From an uncultured Phycisphaerales bacterium (GTDB lineage: Bacteria; Planctomycetota; Phycisphaerae; Sedimentisphaerales; Anaerobacaceae), in the NCBI GenBank assembly GCA_937927975.1, contig CALEZT010000260.1, positions 1 to 30,683 on the forward strand: DNA of 30,683 nucleotides, read 5' to 3'. This document shows positions 10,944 through 20,000 of the stretch, piece after piece. A program made the position numbers and the translations under genes. Each line of letters starts with the position of its first letter. Positions within the stretch are counted from its first letter, which is position 1. Below the pieces are notes generated by a model. That model saw nothing but the letters and a program-made list of their open reading frames with translations. It searched no databases and was not told where the DNA came from.

Positions 10944-12431
10944 TCAGGACTGTCCGTCCTTTCGATTCGGGTTCGGCGTGGGCATTCGCGCCCCCACTTC
11001 GCTGCGCCATCGATGCAGAATCTGCCTCAACTCGGCGGCCTTTTCCGGCATCTTCATCGCCAGATCGTTTCGTTCACTCAGATCGTCGCGGAGATTATAC
11101 AGTTCGACGCGATTGTCTTCATAGAATTCGATCAGTTTGTAGTCGCCCACGCGGACGGCCCCGCCGGGCGAACCGCCCTGATTGCCATAGTGCGGGTAGT
11201 GCCAGTAGAAGGCCCGACGGTCCGGCCGGTTGGTCTGCTGCAAGAATGGCCTCATGCTCCGGCCGTCCAGGTGCTGATCGGGCTTGGCCGGCAGGCCCGC
11301 CATGTCCAGCATCGTCGGATAGAAGTCCGTGCTGATCACCGGCTCCTCGCACACGCTGCCGGGCTGCGTCACGCCGGGCCAGCGGACGATCATCGGCTCG
11401 CGAATGCCGCCTTCGTAGAGCCAGCCTTTGCCCGCCCGCAGCGGCAGATTGCACGTGGGGTGCCCTTCCGAGGTCGAGAGCCCGCCGTTGTCCGACATGA
11501 AGAATATGATGGTGTCCTTCGCCAGGCCCAGCCGATCCAGCGCATCGAGGACCTTGCCCACGGCCTGGTCCATCGCCTCGACCATTCCCGCGTAGACGGC
11601 GTGATCCTGGACGAGCCGAACCTTCCGGTCGCCCTCCTGGCCCCAGTCGGGCCCTTCGTGCCTGACCTGCTTTGCCTTCTCTTCGTACTTGGCTTTGAGG
11701 TCCTCGCGCGCCATCAGCGGCGTGTGGACGGAGTAGAAAGACAGGTACGCCAGGAACGGCTTATCCTTGTTGGCCTCGACAAACCGGCAGGTCTCCGTCG
11801 CCAGCCGGTCGGGCAGATGCTCGCCATCTGGACCATCCGAGAGTCGCGGGTTGCCGTAAGGCGAGAAGTACCGCTTGCCGCCGTAGGGGCCGCCTCGATC
11901 AATGCCGCCTTTGTTGACATCGAAGCCCTGATCCTCCGGCCAGAATCCCTCGGGCCCCAAGTGCCACTTGCCTGCGAAGAAGGTCGCGTAGCCGCCTTCC
12001 TTGAGAGCCTCGGCGACCGTCACTTCCGCCAGAGGCAGCCGGTCCTCGTATCGGGCCGGCAGTAGCGTTCTATTCGTGGTCCGGTTCTTGCCGACAGTGT
12101 CAGGTTGCGGAGCGCCGAAGTAGTCGGTCGTCGCCAGCCGGGCGGGGTACTTGCCCGTCATGATGCTGGCCCGCGTGGGCGAGCAGACGGGACACGCGGC
12201 GTAGGCGCTCGTGAACCGCATGCCGCTCGCGGCCAGCTTGTCCACGTTCGGCGTCTCGTAGAATGTGCTGCCATAGCAGCCCAGGTCCTTCCAGCCCAGA
12301 TCGTCCACCAGGAAGAATACAAAATTCGGTCTCTTCCGCGTCTGCCCGAAGAGCCTGGCCGCTGTGCCGCACCCGGAGAACCACAATGCCGCTCCGGCCC
12401 CCGCTGCCTTGAGAAAATCGCGACGCCTCAT
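10944..12431 (-). CDS. Type I sulfatase, Tat-exported, probable lipoprotein
   Basis: A 495-residue S1-type sulfatase that hydrolyses sulfate esters, probably of polysaccharides. RRRDFLK is a Tat motif, followed by a hydrophobic stretch and Cys21 in a lipobox-like FSGC. Catalytic Cys83 in CSPTR is the residue modified to formylglycine. Asp43/Asp44 (FLVDDLG) and SDNGG are metal ligands; GKWHLG and the C-terminal NLRDDLSERNDLA segment are typical. It overlaps the upstream sulfatase by 4 nt (ATGA), indicating translational coupling. The two proteins are homologous along their length, so they are tandem paralogues. The substrate cannot be inferred. An active formylglycine-generating enzyme must come from elsewhere, since the FGE-domain gene in this window is truncated. 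Confidence 0.93.
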   Translation of the reverse strand: MRRRDFLKAAGAGAALWFSGCGTAARLFGQTRKRPNFVFFLVDDLGWKDLGCYGSTFYETPNVDKLAASGMRFTSAYAACPVCSPTRASIMTGKYPARLATTDYFGAPQPDTVGKNRTTNRTLLPARYEDRLPLAEVTVAEALKEGGYATFFAGKWHLGPEGFWPEDQGFDVNKGGIDRGGPYGGKRYFSPYGNPRLSDGPDGEHLPDRLATETCRFVEANKDKPFLAYLSFYSVHTPLMAREDLKAKYEEKAKQVRHEGPDWGQEGDRKVRLVQDHAVYAGMVEAMDQAVGKVLDALDRLGLAKDTIIFFMSDNGGLSTSEGHPTCNLPLRAGKGWLYEGGIREPMIVRWPGVTQPGSVCEEPVISTDFYPTMLDMAGLPAKPDQHLDGRSMRPFLQQTNRPDRRAFYWHYPHYGNQGGSPGGAVRVGDYKLIEFYEDNRVELYNLRDDLSERNDLAMKMPEKAAELRQILHRWRSEVGARMPTPNPNRKDGQS

Positions 12432-13948
12432 GGGTTGTCCTTTCCGTCCCGGGCTCGCCTCCAGACCTGGAAATCATCGCGAGGCTTGCCCTGGGGCATC
12501 TTCGCTCCCACCTCGATCCGCCAGGCGTGGAGCATCCGTTTCAGTTCGTCCGCCTTGGCGGACATCTTCACGGCCAGATCGTTCCTTTCGCTCAGGTCGT
12601 CTTTAAGATTGTATAGCTCGACCTTGCCGTCCTCGTACCACTCGATCAACTTGTAGTCGCCCGCGCGGACCGCGCCGCTGGGACGATTGCCGCTGCCGTG
12701 ATAGTGCGGGTAGTGCCAGTAGAGCGCATCGCGTTTGGCCGTCCCGGCGCCTCGGAGCAGGGGAACGAGACTGACCCCGTCGACGTGCTGCTCGGGCTTG
12801 AGCGCCAGACCCGCCATCTCCAGCATCGTCGGATAGAAATCCATGCTGACGACCGACTCGTGGCAGACACTGCCCGACTTGGCGACGCCGGGCCACTTGA
12901 TGAGCATCGGCTCGCGAATCCCGCCTTCGTAGAGCCAGCCTTTGCCCGCCCGCAGGGGCAGATTACACGTGGGACCTTCGCGCCCGACCGTCGAGAGCCC
13001 GCCGTTGTCGGACATGAAGATCACGATCGTGTCCTGTTCGAGTTCCAGTGCTTGCAGCTTGTCCAGCACCCGTCCGACGCTGTCGTCGACGCTCTGGATC
13101 ATGCCGGCGTAGACCGCATGGTCCTGAACAAGCCGGGTTGCGTAGGGTCCGTAGACCTTTTCGGCGCGCGGGCCCTCGTGCTCGGGAAGCCCCTTGGCCT
13201 TGGCCTGGTACCTCTCGGCCAGTTCCTTCTTCGATTCGAGCGGCGTGTGCACCCCGTAGTGCGCCAGATACAACAAAAAAGGCCGATCCCTGCTCGCCTC
13301 GATGAACTTGAGCGATTCATCCGTGAGTCGGTCGGTCAGATACTCCCCATCCCGACCGCCCGCCGGCATCGTCTCCAGACTGCGATTGCCTTTGCTGTAC
13401 GGATGAAAATAGCTCGGCGGCGACCCCGAATGGTCTCCCCCGACGTTGATGTCAAAGCCCTGCCGGTCGGGGTAGTATTTCGCGCGGTCCGCATCGCGTG
13501 TTGACAAATGCCATTTGCCGACGTAGCCCGTCGCGTAGCCCACTTCTTTCAGGGCCTCGGCGACCGTCCCCTCCTCCAAGGGCAGGTGCTCGCGATACCC
13601 CGTGGGCGTCTGCGGGGCCCCGATCCAGTCTGTGATGCCCAGGCGGGCGGGGTGCTTGCCCGTCATGATGCTGGCCCGCGTGGGCGAACACACGGGACAG
13701 GCCGCGTACGCGTTCGTGAATCGCACGGACTGCGCCGCAAGCCGATCGATATTGGGCGTTTCGTAGAACGTGCTTCCGTAGCATCCCAAGTCCTTCCAGC
13801 CGAGGTCGTCGATCAGGAAGAACACAAAGTTCGGCTTGCGGCGCGTCGTACTCTGACGGCCGAGACCCGCGCGGGCGCAGAACCCCAGGATCGCCGTGGT
13901 GCCGGCGGCCTCAAGGAACTCCCGTCTGTTGAGAACTCTCCCGCTCAT
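12428..13948 (-). CDS. Type I sulfatase, Tat-exported
   Basis: A 506-residue paralogue of the downstream sulfatase. The signal holds NRREFLEAAG, a Tat motif, without an obvious lipobox, so the product is probably periplasmic and soluble. Asp47/Asp48 (FLIDDLG), Cys87 in CSPTR (the formylglycine site), GKWHLS and SDNGG are present. The two paralogues differ mainly in the loop after GKWHL and in the region around residues 175-215, which may set substrate choice. It starts 19 nt after the leuD stop, with AAGGG upstream of ATG 13948. It therefore appears to be transcribed as part of the leu operon. That position is unusual for a sulfatase. Confidence 0.93.
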   Translation of the reverse strand: MSGRVLNRREFLEAAGTTAILGFCARAGLGRQSTTRRKPNFVFFLIDDLGWKDLGCYGSTFYETPNIDRLAAQSVRFTNAYAACPVCSPTRASIMTGKHPARLGITDWIGAPQTPTGYREHLPLEEGTVAEALKEVGYATGYVGKWHLSTRDADRAKYYPDRQGFDINVGGDHSGSPPSYFHPYSKGNRSLETMPAGGRDGEYLTDRLTDESLKFIEASRDRPFLLYLAHYGVHTPLESKKELAERYQAKAKGLPEHEGPRAEKVYGPYATRLVQDHAVYAGMIQSVDDSVGRVLDKLQALELEQDTIVIFMSDNGGLSTVGREGPTCNLPLRAGKGWLYEGGIREPMLIKWPGVAKSGSVCHESVVSMDFYPTMLEMAGLALKPEQHVDGVSLVPLLRGAGTAKRDALYWHYPHYHGSGNRPSGAVRAGDYKLIEWYEDGKVELYNLKDDLSERNDLAVKMSAKADELKRMLHAWRIEVGAKMPQGKPRDDFQVWRRARDGKDNP

Positions 13949-13967: not shown

Positions 13968-14453
13968 TCAGACGCCTGCCTTCATGATGTGATTGAGCAG
14001 ACCGCCGTCGCGGATGATCTCCAGTGCGAAGTCCGGCAGCGGCATGAACTGGATCTTCTTGCCGCTGGTCTTGTCCTGGATCACGCCGGCGTTGTAGTCG
14101 ATCTCGACCTCGTCGCCGTCGGCGATCTGGTCCACCGCCTCGGCCGACTCGATCAGGTAGAACCCGCAGTCGATCGCGTTGCGGTAGAAAATCCGTGCGA
14201 ACGACCGGGCGATGACGGTCTGGACCTTGGCGCCGCGGATCGCCCAGACCGCATGCTCCCGGCTGGACCCGCATCCGAAGTCGTCGCCCGCAACGATGAC
14301 GTCGCCGGGCTTGCTCTTCTTCACGAAGTCCTTGTCCAGGTCCTCCATGCAGTACTTGGCCAGCTCGGCCTCGTTGTCGGTATTCAAGTACCGAGCGGGG
14401 ATGATCTCGTCGGTATTGATGTGATCACGCTTGTAGACGTGTGCTCTTGCCAT
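13968..14453 (-). CDS. leuD: 3-isopropylmalate dehydratase small subunit
   Basis: A 161-residue swivel-domain subunit that completes the LeuCD isomerase (2- to 3-isopropylmalate). [12 protein letters not shown] is the family signature; [13 protein letters not shown] at the N-terminus is typical of the short LeuD form. ATG 14453 (MARAHVYK) is chosen because AGGA lies 6 nt upstream. The longer frame from 14498 is repeat-derived ([10 protein letters not shown]). The partner leuC lies upstream across a repeat-filled gap. Confidence 0.92.
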
Positions 14454-14466
14454 GAGATCCTCATTT

Positions 14467-14609
14467 CTGAAACCAAATCCGAAATTCGAAACAAGCACGA
14501 ATGATCAAAACCCAAAATCCAAAACGGGCCATCCGAAGTGCGCCAGCGTTTCTGTCATTTGAGTTTTCCTCGTTTTGAATTTGTTTCGGATTTCGATATT
14601 CGTGCTTTC
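14467..14609. repeat. Intercistronic inverted-repeat element, leuC-leuD gap
   Basis: The left arm has AATCCGAAATTCGAAAC and CAAAACCC. The right arm has CATTTGAGTTTT and TGAATTTGTTTCGGATTTCG, which is its approximate reverse complement. The element begins immediately after the leuC stop codon and fills the gap almost completely. It belongs to the same family as 15896-16070. Confidence 0.7.
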
Positions 14610-15872
14610 TTACAGATACTTCCTGGGATCAGCCAACTTCCCTTCGATCGCGCTGGCGGCCACCGTCGCCGGGCTGGCCAGGTAGACTTCGCTCTTGGGG
14701 CTGCCCATCCGGCCGACGAAGTTGCGGTTCGTCGAGCTGATGCACTTTTCGCCCGCGGCCAGAATGCCCATGAATCCGCCCAGGCACGCGCCGCAGGTCG
14801 GAGCGGAGATCACGCAGCCGGCGTCGTAGAACACGTCGAACAGACCTTCGTCCTTCGCCTGCTTCCAGATCTCCGGCGTCGCGGGCACCACGATCGTGCG
14901 GATCGCAGCCTCTTTGCCCTTCATGACCTTGGCCGCGATGCGGAGGTCCTCGATCCGCCCGTTCGTGCAACTGCCGAGGTAGGCCTGATCCATCGCCTGG
15001 CCCTGGCACTCGCCGATCGGCACCGCGTTGCTCGGCAGGTGCGGCAGAGCCACCGTGGGCTCGAGCTTCGAGCAATCGAACACCTCGGTCGTGAAGTACT
15101 GGGCGTCCGGGTCGGACTCAAACACCGTGTAGTCCTTGACATCCTTCAGGTGCGAATCCAAGTAGGCCTTGGTCACCTCGTCGAACCCGATGATGCCGTT
15201 CTTGGCGCCGGCTTCGATGGCCATATTGGTCATCGTCATGCGGGCCTCCATCGTCATCTCTTTGAGCGCCGGACCCACGAACTCCATCGCGCGGTAGAGG
15301 GCGCCGTCGGTGCCGATCCGCCCGATCACGTTGAGCATCACGTCCTTGCTGTAGACCCCGTGCGGCAGCGAGCCGTTGAGCACGAACTTCATCGACGCAG
15401 GCACCTTGAACCAGAGCTTGCCGGTGGCGACCGAGGCCGCCAGGTCGGTCGAGCCGATGCCGGTGCTGAAGGCCGCCAGGGCGCCGTAGGTGCAGGTGTG
15501 CGAGTCGCCGCCCACGATCACCTCGCCCGGCCGGATGTGGCCCTGCTCGGGCAGGATCGCATGGCAGACGCCCGCGCGGCCCAGCTTGTAGTAGTGCTTG
15601 ATCTTGTGGCGCTTGGCCCACTCATCGAGCCTCTTGTGCAGCTCGGCGCTCTTGATGTCCTTGGGCGGCTGGAAGTGGTCCGGCGTCACCACGATCCTGT
15701 CCGGGTCGAACACGCGATCCAGTCCCTTCTCCTTGAGCATCGAGATCGCCGGCGGCGTCGTCACATCGTGACACATCACCATGTCGATCCTGGCGTCCAC
15801 CAACTGCCCCGGAACGACCGACTTTTGCCCGGCCGCTCTCGCGAGGATCTTTTCCGTTATCGTCATTCCCAT
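14610..15872 (-). CDS. leuC: 3-isopropylmalate dehydratase large subunit
   Basis: A 420-residue aconitase-superfamily subunit that pairs with LeuD. Three [4Fe-4S] ligands are visible: Cys302 in SCTNGR, and Cys360 and Cys363 in [18 protein letters not shown] is the conserved N-terminal motif. The length fits the shorter LeuC type (about 420 residues) rather than the enterobacterial one (about 466); homoaconitase-like activity is possible but the leu context favours LeuC. Start ATG 15872 has AGAGGTGA 8 nt upstream. The oxygen-sensitive cluster means activity depends on iron-sulfur supply. Confidence 0.92.
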
Positions 15873-16088: not shown

Positions 16089-17642
16089 CTATAACTGAAC
16101 TTTCACCTGCGGCTGGTCTGTCGCCTTCTGCGCCGCCACCATCCGGTTGACCGCGTCCACGTACGCCTTGGCGCTGGCTTCGATGATGTCCGTCGAGACG
16201 CCGCGACCGATGAAGGTCCGGCCGTTCTCGCTGATGCGGACGGTCGCCTCGCCCAGAGCCTCGGTGCCCGCGGTGATCGCGCGGATCGAATACTCCGCCA
16301 GCTTGGGCCGCAGTTCCATCGCCTGGCGGATCGCCTCGTACGCCGCGTCGACCGGCCCGTCGCCGAACGCGACCGCGATCTTCGTTTCGCCTTTGACGCC
16401 GATCTTTACGCTGGCGGTCGGGAGCGTCCCGGTTCCCGAGGCGACATGCAGATAATCGAGCGTGTACGTCTGCTCGATCACGCGTATCTCGGCGTTGACG
16501 ATCGCCGCGACGTCCTCGTCGAAGACTTCCTTCTTCTTGTCCGCGATCTCGATGAACCGCTGGTACGCCTGCTCGAGTTCGTCCTTGCTGAGCTTGTAGC
16601 CGAGCTGCTTGCAGCGGTCGGCGAAGCCCGCGCGACCCGTGTGGCGTCCGAGCACCATGCGCGAGCCGCCCAGGCCGATCGTCTCGGGCGTCATGATCTC
16701 GTACGTCGAACGCTCCTTGAGGATGCCGTCCACGTGGATGCCCGACTCGTGGGCGAAGGCGTTGGCGCCGACGATCGCCTTGTTGGGCTGGATCACGAAA
16801 CCCGTGAGCTGAGAGACGAGCTGGCTGGTGCGATAGATCTCCTTCGTGTTGATGTTCGTGGACAGCCCGTCGCCGAAGGAATCCTGGCGGGTCCGGATCG
16901 CCATGACGACCTCTTCCATCGCGGCGTTGCCCGCCCGCTCGCCCAGTCCGTTGATGGTGCATTCGACCTGCCGGGCGCCGTTGCGAACGCCGGCCAGGGA
17001 GTTGGCGACCGCCACACCCAGATCGTTGTGGCAATGGGTGCTGATGACGCACTTGTCGATGCCTTTGACGTCGCTCTTGAGCCTGGCGATGATCTGGCCA
17101 TATTCGTAGGGCAAGACGTAGCCGACGGTGTCCGGGATGTTGAGCGTCGTGGCGCCGGCCTCGATCACCGCCGCGAGGACCTCGATGAGGAATGGGATCT
17201 CACTCCGGCAGGCGTCCTCCGGCGAGAACTCGATGTCGTCCGTGAAGTTCTTGCAGCACTTGATCGCCTCGACCGCCATCTTGAGGACCTGGTCGGGCTC
17301 TTTCTTGAGCTTGTGCTTCATGTGAATCGGCGACGTCGCGATGAACGTGTGGATTCGCTTCTTCTTGGCCGGGGCCAGGGCCTTGCCCGCCGCCTCGATG
17401 TCGTTGGCGTTGGCGCGGGCCAGGCCGGCGATCGTCGGGCCTTTGACCTGCTCGGCCACGAGCCTGGTCGCCTCGAACTGGGCGGGCGAGGAAACGGGGA
17501 ATCCCGCCTCGATGATGTCGACCCCGAGCACCGCCAGTTGCCGGGCGATCTCGAGCTTCTGCGGAATCGACATGGCCGCCCCGGGCGACTGCTCGCCGTC
17601 GCGGAGCGTCGTATCGAAGATCAATACTTTCTCACCAGACAT
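16089..17642 (-). CDS. leuA: 2-isopropylmalate synthase
   Basis: A 517-residue first enzyme of leucine synthesis that condenses acetyl-CoA with 2-oxoisovalerate. The TIM-barrel half has [12 protein letters not shown], the metal-binding STHCHNDLG and HESGIHVDG. The C-terminal part (about 380-517) is the LeuA dimer/allosteric domain, where leucine normally feeds back ([19 protein letters not shown]). ATG 17642 ([10 protein letters not shown]) is preferred, with GGAG 8 nt upstream, over the longer frame from 17678. It is the first structural gene of the operon and lies about 120 nt after the stop of a Leu-rich leader peptide, so it is probably attenuated by leucine supply. Homocitrate or citramalate synthase is less likely because leuB, leuC and leuD are adjacent. 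Confidence 0.92.
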
Positions 17643-17761
17643 TGTTGGCTCTCCAAACAAGATTTCGTAGCGGGCCATTATGCCGCAAGTGGGGCCGAAA
17701 CGCTACCGTTTTGCGTAACTACAGGAACTTGAATGAGTTGTGGTGATTCGGTTCTTTGCGC

Positions 17762-17839
17762 CTAGCGGCGCAGCAGCAGGGCCAGCCGGCCGATCAGGCC
17801 GTGGATGGGAAGGAGATGGATTGTGCTTGCCGTATCCAT
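17762..17839 (-). CDS. Candidate leucine leader peptide upstream of leuA
   Basis: A 25-codon frame from ATG 17839 to TAG 17762-17764 encodes MDTASTIHLLPIHGLIGR followed by LALLLRR. Seven of 25 residues are Leu, three of them consecutive CTG codons four to six codons before the stop. A GCGCC-GCTA-GGCGC stem spans the stop codon, and a further stem (GAAC.GAAT...ATTC..GTTC) follows before leuA. There is no Shine-Dalgarno, but the predicted promoter puts the transcript start only a few bases upstream, so it may be leaderless. This layout matches ribosome-mediated attenuation leaders of leu operons. I see no classic U-run terminator, so the mechanism downstream is uncertain. Confidence 0.6.
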   Translation of the reverse strand: MDTASTIHLLPIHGLIGRLALLLRR

Positions 17840-17849
17840 AGTTGTCACA

Positions 17850-17877
17850 AGTATACCTATCGGTCAGACGAATGCAA
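17850..17877 (-). promoter_or_regulatory. Candidate leu operon promoter
   Basis: On the minus strand TTGCAT (17877-17872), a 16-nt spacer and TATACT (17855-17850, 5 of 6 to consensus) predict a start near 17843, four nucleotides before the leader ATG at 17839. The -35 is weak. Confidence 0.5.
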
Positions 17878-17897
17878 GACTTTTCCGGAAAAAAGTC
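17878..17897. promoter_or_regulatory. Palindrome abutting the leu promoter -35 box
   Basis: GACTTTT (17878-17884) pairs with AAAAGTC (17891-17897) around a CCGGAA centre, directly upstream of the -35. It could be an operator for an activator or the end of the upstream gene's transcript; neither is proven. Confidence 0.35.
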
Positions 17898-17937
17898 CGT
17901 GACAGGCATCAGGGACGATCCGCGCGAGGGAGGGACT

Positions 17938-17999: not shown

Positions 18000-19868
18000 T
18001 CAGTAGGCGGCCTTCCACGGGTTTTCCCGGCCGATCTTGGCTGCGGCGCCGACCTGCTGCTGCCTGGTCGTCAGCGGTCTTATCGGGATCGTCAGGGACA
18101 ACGGCGATTCGCTGCGTCGCTGGAGACTCCACGATTCCCGCGGCGACTCGATCCCGGCGGCCACCGCGTCGAGCGCGACGCTGGAGTAGACGGAAGGCGC
18201 CACGAACCTCGAGATCGCGCCCGTCGGGGCCATCGAGAGCGTGAAGACGATCGCGGCCTGCTCGATCTTGCGAAAATCGAACGAACGCCCCGAGCCGCGA
18301 TAGAGGACGACATCGACCCAGGCCTGGTTCGATTCGCGTCCGGCCTCCAGGCTCGCGGTCAGGCCGTCGAATTTCACTGCGTGCAAAGCGAAGACGCCTG
18401 CGACGGGGCCCGAAGCGAAATAGACGGGTTCCTCCAGGTCCAGCCGCTCGGAGAGGGTCAGGCCGGTCACCGCGCCTTCGAACTGCAGCCGCAATCGCAG
18501 GTCGCGGGCACGGATCGTGCCGTTGGCGATCTTGTCCAGCGAGATGTGCGTGTCGCCCCGGTCGGTGGCGAACAGCACCGCGCCGAGCACGTCGCCCTTG
18601 TCCTGGACCGTCATCAGGCTCGCGGAGGCGTAGTCGTGGCCGTCGTGCAGCATGCGGACCCGCACGCTGATCGGTCCGCCCGTGTCTTTCCAGTACCCGA
18701 CGAGGGGACGACGCTGGTTCCAGAAGTCGCCCAGATTGACGCTGCCCAGGGTGAAGTTCGGATGCAGGTACGTCCTGCCGACGATGTCGTGCTCGCCCGA
18801 GGAGTTGGTGACGAAGCTCTCGACCGCCACATGCTCGGCGCCTGAAGATCGGAAGCCCACGATCAGATCGTCGGGACATCGAATGCCCAGACGGTGCGCG
18901 TCGAGGCTTTCCCAGGCCTCCGTTTCAGGCATCAATCGGATGGAATCGCCCAGGCCTCGCTGGAGGAAGGCCAGGGTCGCCCGCGACAGCAGGGTCGAAT
19001 AGCTCCGGCTGTGCGGGCCCGCCCACTGCACGCTCGACGGATGGAACCGTCGGGCGACGTGGCTCCAGGCGAAGTTGTTCAGCCAGTCGAGCAGCTCCCG
19101 CGATGGCTCGTCGCGGACGTGCTTGAGCATCCGCGAGATCTCCTCGATGGCCACAGGGGTGTACGTCGGGCTGTTGTACTCGGTGAACGAGCCCTTCTGG
19201 CGGGTATAATCGTAGAAGCGTTGCAGACGCCCTCTGCCGTAGTCGAACAGGTCGCGCGCGTCCAGCCGCTCGCCCGCCACCAGCGTGACATACGTGCCCA
19301 TCAGGGCGATGTTCGTGTAGCCAGGACCCACGTCCCGCCGACGGATCGAACGGGCCGCGTGGAGGATCGAGGCGCGGACGCTCGGTCGCAGGTCCTCCGA
19401 CAGACGGTCCATGTGATCGATTGCGACCTGCAGGAGCTGCACGCCGCAGAAGTCCGCCCAGTTCCAGTCCGGCGGCGACATCTTGTCCAGCGGCTCTTCG
19501 AGGAACCACGGCCAGATCCCGTACGTCGGACTGTTGGGGTCCTGGTCCTGCAGGGCGATCACGCGGGTCAGGATCGCCTCGGCCCGCTCCAGGCGGTCGG
19601 CCTGGCCGCTGTCCAGCAGCGCCACCGCGTACTTGTGCGAGTCGCGGGTGCGGTGGACGGTTCCACCGGTCAGGGTCGTGTGGTAACCGGGCGAGGAGAA
19701 TTCGCCCGCAAGCATCCGCTGAGCGGGGTCGTACTGAGCATCCAAGCGGGCCAGGGCCCGCAGAAACGCCTGCCGACGGCCCTCGCTGGAAAACAGATCG
19801 GCCGCCAGGCACGGGCCGCAAAGCATCATCGCCGCCAGGAAGATCAGGGAGATTCGCAGATTGCGCAT
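18000..19868 (-). CDS. Exported 622-residue protein, possible alpha-toroid carbohydrate-active enzyme
   Basis: A signal peptide (MRNLRISLIFLAAMMLCG, cleavage after LAA near residue 23) is preceded by AAAGGAG, which sets the start at 19868. The N-terminal two-thirds is helical with aromatic and acidic loops (TYGIWPWFLEEP, PPDWNWADFCGVQLL, FTEYNSPTYTPVAIEEI), the look of an (alpha/alpha) toroid. The C-terminal part (about 330-620) seems beta-rich. This two-part layout recalls heparinase II/III-like lyases and related glycosidases. I do not recognise a catalytic signature, so the enzyme class is a guess. The nearby sulfatases make a role in sulfated-polysaccharide use conceivable. It is on the leu strand but upstream of that promoter, so it is separately expressed. 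Confidence 0.7.
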   Translation of the reverse strand: MRNLRISLIFLAAMMLCGPCLAADLFSSEGRRQAFLRALARLDAQYDPAQRMLAGEFSSPGYHTTLTGGTVHRTRDSHKYAVALLDSGQADRLERAEAILTRVIALQDQDPNSPTYGIWPWFLEEPLDKMSPPDWNWADFCGVQLLQVAIDHMDRLSEDLRPSVRASILHAARSIRRRDVGPGYTNIALMGTYVTLVAGERLDARDLFDYGRGRLQRFYDYTRQKGSFTEYNSPTYTPVAIEEISRMLKHVRDEPSRELLDWLNNFAWSHVARRFHPSSVQWAGPHSRSYSTLLSRATLAFLQRGLGDSIRLMPETEAWESLDAHRLGIRCPDDLIVGFRSSGAEHVAVESFVTNSSGEHDIVGRTYLHPNFTLGSVNLGDFWNQRRPLVGYWKDTGGPISVRVRMLHDGHDYASASLMTVQDKGDVLGAVLFATDRGDTHISLDKIANGTIRARDLRLRLQFEGAVTGLTLSERLDLEEPVYFASGPVAGVFALHAVKFDGLTASLEAGRESNQAWVDVVLYRGSGRSFDFRKIEQAAIVFTLSMAPTGAISRFVAPSVYSSVALDAVAAGIESPRESWSLQRRSESPLSLTIPIRPLTTRQQQVGAAAKIGRENPWKAAY

Positions 19869-19967
19869 GGTCCAGATTGCTCCTTTCGTCGTGTGCCCAC
19901 CCTTGGTGGGAGCCCCCATGATACGCCCGATCCCCCGCCAAGTCCATACGCGTCGCACACACCACGT

Positions 19968-20000
19968 GCGCCACATTTGGAACCTTGGCACATGTGGCGC
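19968..20000. repeat. 9-bp inverted repeat upstream of the 622-residue gene
   Basis: GCGCCACAT (19968-19976) and ATGTGGCGC (19992-20000) are perfect complements with a 15-nt loop, 100 nt upstream of ATG 19868. It could be an operator or a 5' UTR hairpin of that gene. Confidence 0.4.

Follow-up and report, generated by a model that had tools for sequence, protein, structure and literature searches.

A putative leaderless leucine attenuator ahead of leuA in Sedimentisphaerales that may act through Rho

Leader peptides with a run of leucine codons are of a kind already known. The closest known system to the locus described here is the leaderless leuA leader of Streptomyces lividans, which has a leaderless peptide, LeuL1 (MRFGLLLLSCRGEGL), before leuA and no typical intrinsic terminator (PMC8079986). 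The LEU element found before leuA in Actinobacteria is presented with a conserved pseudoknot and with its Leu run paired to the leuA Shine-Dalgarno (SD) sequence, and its mode of action was left open by the authors in 2005 (PMC1262725); the missing terminator at the Leu-run leader of Streptomyces was remarked on again in 2021 (PMC8079986). The planctomycete leader analysed here resembles LeuL1 in that it is a Leu-run peptide before leuA, predicted to be leaderless, and has no typical intrinsic terminator. It differs from LeuL1 and from the LEU element in that it belongs to another phylum and has a frozen hairpin at its stop codon, a C-rich tract poor in G and a second block that resembles a promoter, whereas the base-stem pairing of the Leu run with the SD sequence in the LEU element is not seen here.

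Several other leader systems share single features with this one. Escherichia coli tnaC is a Rho-dependent leader attenuator in which a short ORF is followed by a Rho-sensitive region. The same arrangement is given for orf34 of Salmonella speF (PMC6386406). In contrast to both, only base composition points to a Rho site at the present locus, a shortage of leucine would be the state that is sensed, and the start would be leaderless. In Corynebacterium glutamicum, the ilvBNC transcript starts 1 nt from the leader start codon (PMC11857589). That system likewise combines a branched-chain amino acid leader peptide with a near-leaderless transcript but belongs to another operon and phylum and includes a terminator hairpin. 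Canestrari, in 2020, is said to have described polycysteine leaderless short ORFs of mycobacteria, which likewise combine a leaderless start with a run of the regulating codon but involve cysteine, another phylum and another operon. In the open-licence literature, we found no description of a leucine leader or of a leaderless leader in Planctomycetota; a survey that tallies such genes across a range of phyla, Planctomycetes included, mentions neither leucine nor leuA in its accessible part (PMC4833913). Judged by titles and the opening lines of abstracts, none of the papers that we found there in looking for Rho-dependent leucine leaders deals with an exchange of a terminator for a C-rich tract. 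The present locus would extend leaderless amino acid leaders to Planctomycetota.

The window, that is, the whole stretch of 30,683 nt that was analysed, encodes on its minus strand leuA (2-isopropylmalate synthase, 16089..17642; TIGR00973, NF002086), a leuC-type 3-isopropylmalate dehydratase large subunit (14610..15872) and a leuD-type small subunit (13968..14498, the ORF as listed, with an uncertain start). Ahead of these genes, positions 17839-17762 of the minus strand hold MDTASTIHLLPIHGLIGRLALLLRR followed by TAG. The frame previously read from this sequence was confirmed: it consists of 25 codons, 7 of them Leu, runs from the ATG at 17839-17837 to the TAG at 17764-17762 and ends in LALLLRR (leader ORF, 17762..17839). 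The absence of an SD sequence before the leader ATG, also claimed by the earlier note, holds as well; leuA itself, with its ATG at 17642, is preceded by GGAG (17651..17654). A putative promoter, P1, consists of a -35-like TTGCAT (17872..17877, minus strand; a 3/6 match to TTGACA, with TTGCA common to most of 21 aligned leaders), a 16-nt spacer and the -10-like TATACT (17850..17855, minus strand). The latter is present as noted earlier, with a gap to the ATG of 10 nt, not 11, and the start site of P1 would be expected near 17843. The ORF also contains an inverted repeat, GGCC-TGATC-GGCC (17788..17800, minus strand), recognised by eye, and altered versions of it, again judged only by eye, occur in a number of relatives. 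Predictions for the window do not single out this region: P1 is absent from the promoter scan, which instead predicts a promoter within the leader (GTGACA-17-CACAAT, 17848-17820), the fold of the leader region is not unusual (z = +1.0), and the Rfam covariance models gave 0 matches in the window at the gathering score. By itself, the window sequence is little proof, and the evidence is comparative.

A scan for LeuA yielded 80 loci, among which L001-L029 and L031 are planctomycetes, many of them Phycisphaerae or Sedimentisphaerales. The same leader layout was found in most planctomycete loci with enough upstream sequence, the exceptions being L011, L025 and L028. For a wider search, a model was built from 21 leaders (R1) that contains no leuA sequence. 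It matched 68 of the 397 genomes of the class, and all 67 matched loci that were retrieved carry leuA (11 of these loci were among the sources of the model); the leader was found in 61 of the 67 by the ORF finder and in 5 more by later scripts, and the remaining locus, L144, has only an irregular stem. When 24 genomes of relatives were searched, R1 gave one strong match (E < 1e-7) in each of 18, mostly members of the model, and 8 weaker matches (E 0.1-0.9). No strong R1 match was found ahead of genes other than leuA, and the 6 genomes matched among 392 of the phylum were all already among the class matches. In Sedimentisphaerales, the order of the relative L002, leuA is present in 131 of 148 genomes, 5 of which have no upstream sequence; 120 of the 126 remaining loci have the leader or at least its stop hairpin. 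These loci comprise 109 with a class I leader or stem, 11 with class II and 6 with neither, and the class I count includes four stem-only cases (L185, L210 and L222, which are cut upstream, and L214, in which no ORF was found). The R1 search and this order sample are less biased than the leader sets picked by patterns that are used below. In a quick LeuA tree, the window's LeuA falls inside class I, next to L098 and L001, the three class II rows group together in a single clade (support 100), and the three rows of loci that have no leader fall at two places inside class I. Conservation of the leaders extends to loci whose LeuA is only about 57-60% identical to that of the window. The short frame and its Leu codons, whose conservation had been proposed as a check, are retained in close and distant relatives. 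Outside the phylum, 50 leuA loci were examined; in 48 of them the upstream sequence was long enough, and a weak leader candidate was seen in 2. The Nitrospinota locus L056 has METKRIALTVTEESSVRPARPLSLLLLGRQAE 166 nt before leuA and 7 nt after TAAAAT, possibly an unrelated leaderless Leu leader.

The reading frame of the leader is tied to the hairpin at its end. In 75 leaders picked without a frame condition (a larger, later set required the frame), the distance from the ATG to the stem was 1 modulo 3 in 73, with 9 different lengths among the correct picks. The two exceptions, L108 and L114, and one of the 73, L122, are wrong start picks, and the correct start restores the frame; it is also correct in 5 leaders added by hand. 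In L114, the start appears to be GTG, located 7 nt after TAAAAT. The counts by codon position that follow refer to 73 leaders, namely the 75 without L114 and L122 and with L108 corrected; the larger set (104-109 leaders) never contained L013 (contig end), L144 (odd stem) or L122. The last codon of the run, which enters the stem, encodes Leu in all 73 leaders (CTG in 51, TTG in 22), although only its last two letters pair. The codon before it (-1) is Leu in 55, Ile in 15 and another in 3, and codon -2 is Leu in 65. The Leu run uses all of CTT, CTC, CTG, CTA, TTG and TTA, six synonymous codons. In the larger set, Leu accounts for 22% of codons when the leader is read in frame, compared with 8% and 5% when it is read out of frame. 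The N-terminal half of the peptide varies among relatives, and certain leaders have only 2-3 Leu. A short ORF with a Leu run upstream of a leucine synthesis operon is what would be expected of an attenuator sensor. A separate feature of the early ORF is ACAATT or a close form of it (Thr-Ile) at leader nucleotides 16-21, present in 55 of 109 leaders, where shuffled sequences give 12.6, and mostly at the same position; it is perhaps an early-ORF element for leaderless initiation.

A match of at least 5/6 to TATAAT lies 5-11 nt before the start codon in 70 of 101 leaders when the most upstream in-frame ATG is used, and two control windows of equal width give 5 and 1; this figure is in part built in, and the invariance of the hairpin arms is built in, since leaders were admitted by patterns that needed most arm letters and a -10-like hexamer (at least 4/6) near some start. 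The set for this test holds 102 distinct leaders out of 104, and the set of 109 leaders, which includes a few duplicates, is not identical to the 109 order genomes. An SD-like word precedes only 3 of 101 leaders, against 87 of 102 leuA genes. From these patterns, we infer a leaderless transcript that starts at the AUG or a few nucleotides before it. The conserved frame, the Leu codons and the -10 spacing support the proposal of the earlier note that a leucine leader peptide lies at or within a few nucleotides of the 5' end, and we regard such a leader as very probable.

The stem reported earlier at the stop codon is a 6-bp inverted repeat, TGCGCC-GCTA-GGCGCA (17757..17772, minus strand), with arms at 17772-17767 and 17762-17757; its 5' arm begins at the second nucleotide of the last Leu codon (CTG), and the stop codon lies within the repeat. 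All 73 leaders of class I have TGCGCC, 4-7 nt and GGCGC with identical arms (the picking pattern already demanded most of these letters). In the 11 leaders of class II, which form a sister clade, the hairpin is TAGCCC-N4-GGGCTA in every case, and the peptides end in LALRG, LAPRG, LALLG or LAPLG. Class I and class II hairpins alike have a 5' arm that begins at the second nucleotide of a Leu codon (xTG in class I, xTA in class II), and three pairs differ compensatorily between them, which supports an RNA stem if the two hairpins are homologous. The arms are invariant within each class, which a simple stem would not require. In L003, L027 and L093, as well as L122, the hairpin has a palindromic loop of 43 nt with both arms intact. 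The loop in these four, and by their peptides also in L205 and L206, is 39 nt longer and GC-rich, and the addition looks like a small repeat element that was inserted several times. A DNA operator dyad is disfavoured by loops that measure 4-7 nt and, in three or four cases, 43 nt with intact arms. No recurrent partner for either arm was found in class I leaders, and for the 3' arm in particular the best antiterminator-type pairing is the same as in shuffled sequences (5.14 against 5.12). Classical attenuation in the window is rejected, given that there is neither a terminator nor an alternative partner for the hairpin arms.

The terminator scan found no terminator-like site in the window. Between the hairpin and leuA, a strong intrinsic terminator is present in 2 of the 109 leaders of class I and in none of the 11 of class II (0.7 and 0 in shuffles), and under laxer criteria a terminator-like site appears in 15 of 109 leaders against 5.3 in shuffles. 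Elsewhere in the class, that is, in 40 of the 77 genomes that carry leuA in the class sample and lie outside the order sample, mostly the top-scoring ones and presumably of other orders, a strong terminator precedes leuA in 34 of 40 loci (0.3 in shuffles), and in 25 of these 34 it is preceded by a Leu-rich ORF. The earlier note was thus right to take the missing U-run terminator as the sign of a variant mechanism, most loci elsewhere in the class having one. In the 34 loci, the stop codon region pairs with the 5' arm of the terminator over a mean of about 7.8 bp against 5.1 in shuffles, as exemplified by the antiterminator-type pairing of GATCGTAGGG with CCCTGCGATC; 10 of the 34 have 5 bp or fewer. 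These leaders look like classical attenuators. They likewise have a Leu-rich leader in the same place with its stop codon inside a pairing segment but include a terminator and an antiterminator segment, neither of which was found in the window's order. Terminator-bearing leucine leaders include L231, L241, L243, L252, L254, L255 and others of L223-L262. The phylum sample supplied another 20 genomes (L263-L282), of which 6 (L264, L268, L271, L274, L275 and L279) have a Leu-rich ORF together with such a terminator and 14 do not. The terminator-bearing form is the wider and probably the ancestral one. A -10-like hexamer precedes 11 of the 25 terminator-bearing Leu-rich leaders (6 with a 5/6 match) and an SD-like word 7, so that a leaderless start is less clear elsewhere in the class. 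One class thus holds the same kind of sensor with a textbook terminator and, in the window's order, without it; given both forms, the change of effector is readable in the sequence and could be tested by swapping modules.

Rho loads on C-rich, G-poor RNA (rut sites). A tract of this composition, likewise present in relatives, follows the hairpin in the window (17719..17756, minus strand), as would be expected after the ORF of a Rho attenuator. In the window's order, C makes up 29% and G 5.6% of the 32 nt after the stem (45% and 2% in nucleotides 8-15), and C exceeds G there in 103 of 104 leaders. In contrast, the 32 nt after the stop codon of the 25 terminator-bearing leaders contain 29% C and 26% G, and C reaches at least three times G in 0 of 25. 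The Rho RNA-binding domain is encoded in 20 of 22 genomes of relatives, with a strong match in 19.

A conserved block, block 2 (TTTcanAtAAtcGTgGcATTTTnGCnCnTTTTnGGGCATAAT; 17677..17718, minus strand), is present in 75 of 86 leuA upstream regions and is a putative second promoter, P2, with a -35-like GTAGCG (17706-17701) and a -10-like CATAAT (17682-17677). The distance from CATAAT to the leuA ATG peaks at 33-35 nt, with a minimum of 26, and a strict block 2 pattern with a spacing to an ATG occurs in 3 of 10 genomes, always before leuA. In L025 and L028, the block is present and the leader absent. A promoter for a leader-free leuA mRNA would fit these observations; the -35 part is non-canonical, and P2 is not predicted by the promoter scan of the window. 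Block 2 was also considered as an RNA hairpin, a possibility rejected for want of a consistent covarying stem. By eye, its GTGG...ATTTT resembles the end of the terminators found elsewhere in the class, with their 3' arm and U-run, but its pairing with the C-rich tract is no better than in shuffles (5.09 against 5.14, n = 64), and a derivation of the block from a terminator 3' arm is an impression.

For the locus as a whole, we favour a leaderless leucine attenuator in which the classical sensor would have been kept and the effector exchanged, most likely for Rho-dependent termination, a reading that these comparisons leave evenly balanced; for Rho itself as the effector, our confidence falls slightly short of that. 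The P1 RNA would start at the AUG or a few nucleotides before it, and a 70S ribosome would initiate there and translate about 25 codons, the final part of which is the Leu run. With ample Leu-tRNA, the ribosome would arrive at the stop codon, within the hairpin or immediately beyond it, and depart, exposing the C-rich tract; Rho would load on it, most P1 transcripts would end before leuA, and the remaining short RNA would end at the hairpin as a protective structure. When leucine is scarce, a ribosome held on the Leu run would cover the 5' arm, the hairpin could not form, and more P1 transcripts would continue into leuA, with P2 providing a basal transcript without the leader. Comparison among relatives supports the leader, its frame and Leu identity, the start near the 5' end, the hairpin, the tract, the lack of a terminator and the P2-like block as components of this scheme; the leucine response, the role of Rho, the activity of P2 and the reduction of Rho termination by a stalled ribosome would be its predicted properties. 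The last of these is the weakest step. Going by known ribosome footprints, the C-rich tract should lie beyond the reach of a ribosome that has stalled on the Leu run, so that simple masking as in tnaC would not work. Several observations count against the proposed attenuator: P2 would allow leuA to be expressed without the leader, the near-invariant letters of the hairpin would be unnecessary for a roadblock or a 3' protector, and the leaders with only 2-3 Leu, the 6 of 126 loci without a leader and the terminator-like sites found in 15 of 109 leaders under laxer criteria fit it poorly. More specifically, and quite tentatively, the order might have rebuilt a classical attenuator by keeping the Leu-run leader and replacing the terminator and antiterminator with a sequence-frozen hairpin and a Rho-loading tract, the hairpin being read by a partner (the ribosome, a Rho complex or an RNA-binding protein) that relays the position of the ribosome. 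If true, this would be a ribosome-to-Rho attenuator without competing RNA structures.

Rho might be dispensable if the hairpin alone paused or ended transcription without a U-run and a stalled ribosome masked its 5' arm, letting the polymerase pass. In its favour, Leu conservation is highest at the three codons that adjoin the stem, the 5' arm starts within a Leu codon in both hairpin classes, and the 4 loci with the 43-nt palindromic loop retain both arms; we nevertheless consider it unlikely, as the 9 nt after the stem contain 0-3 T in 100 of 109 leaders, a ribosome at the stop codon would mask the hairpin as well, and the G-poor tract would be left unexplained. It is also conceivable, if improbable, that the P1 transcript is a trans-acting small RNA that ends at the frozen hairpin, with P2 alone serving leuA. 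The frozen hairpin letters with no recurrent partner, the proximity of the P2-like block to leuA and its retention upstream of leuA in L025 and L028, where the leader is missing, would suit a small RNA, but strong matches to the model occur only before leuA, the ORF contains Leu codons, and the leaders elsewhere in the class resemble plain cis attenuators.

A mechanism like that of the actinobacterial LEU element, with Leu codons pairing to the leuA SD and control of leuA at the level of translation or structure, seems more doubtful again, even though the gene is the same, the Leu-run leader is similar and a terminator is absent there too. The complementarity between the Leu run and the leuA SD is no greater than in shuffles (4.64 against 4.76), no recurrent partner was found for either arm of the hairpin, and the distance from leader to leuA varies by hundreds of nucleotides. 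For the same lack of pairing and variable distance, and with a promoter-like block in between, the earlier suggestion of a perhaps translational mechanism finds no support. We give slightly less weight still to a relic, that is, a leader that no longer regulates after decay of its terminator: a strong terminator is missing from 107 of the 109 leaders of class I and from all 11 of class II, and some loci have lost the leader completely, but the frame, the Leu identity, the promoter spacing, the hairpin and the tract persist over the whole range of LeuA identity given above (to about 57-60%). Finally, a functional micropeptide, such as a small membrane peptide, in place of a sensor has very little to recommend it, since the Leu-rich composition and the C-terminus that is basic in many leaders are offset by the varying N-terminal half, the presence of Ile instead of Leu at one codon in 15 of the 73 leaders and the tie between the end of the peptide and an RNA hairpin.

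Other sequences lie next to the leucine genes in the window. Downstream of leuD, two sulfatase genes are located side by side on the minus strand (10944-13948). Upstream of the leader, the minus strand contains a 663-codon ORF (18000-19991) with no Pfam match at E 0.001. Immediately upstream of the -35 of P1, the minus strand reads GACTTTTTTCCGGAAAAGTC at about 17879-17898, and AAAAGTCTTGCA, likewise upstream of the -35, is common to several close relatives; the GACTTTTTTCCGGAAAAGTC region may be where the upstream unit ends, or it may be an upstream promoter element.
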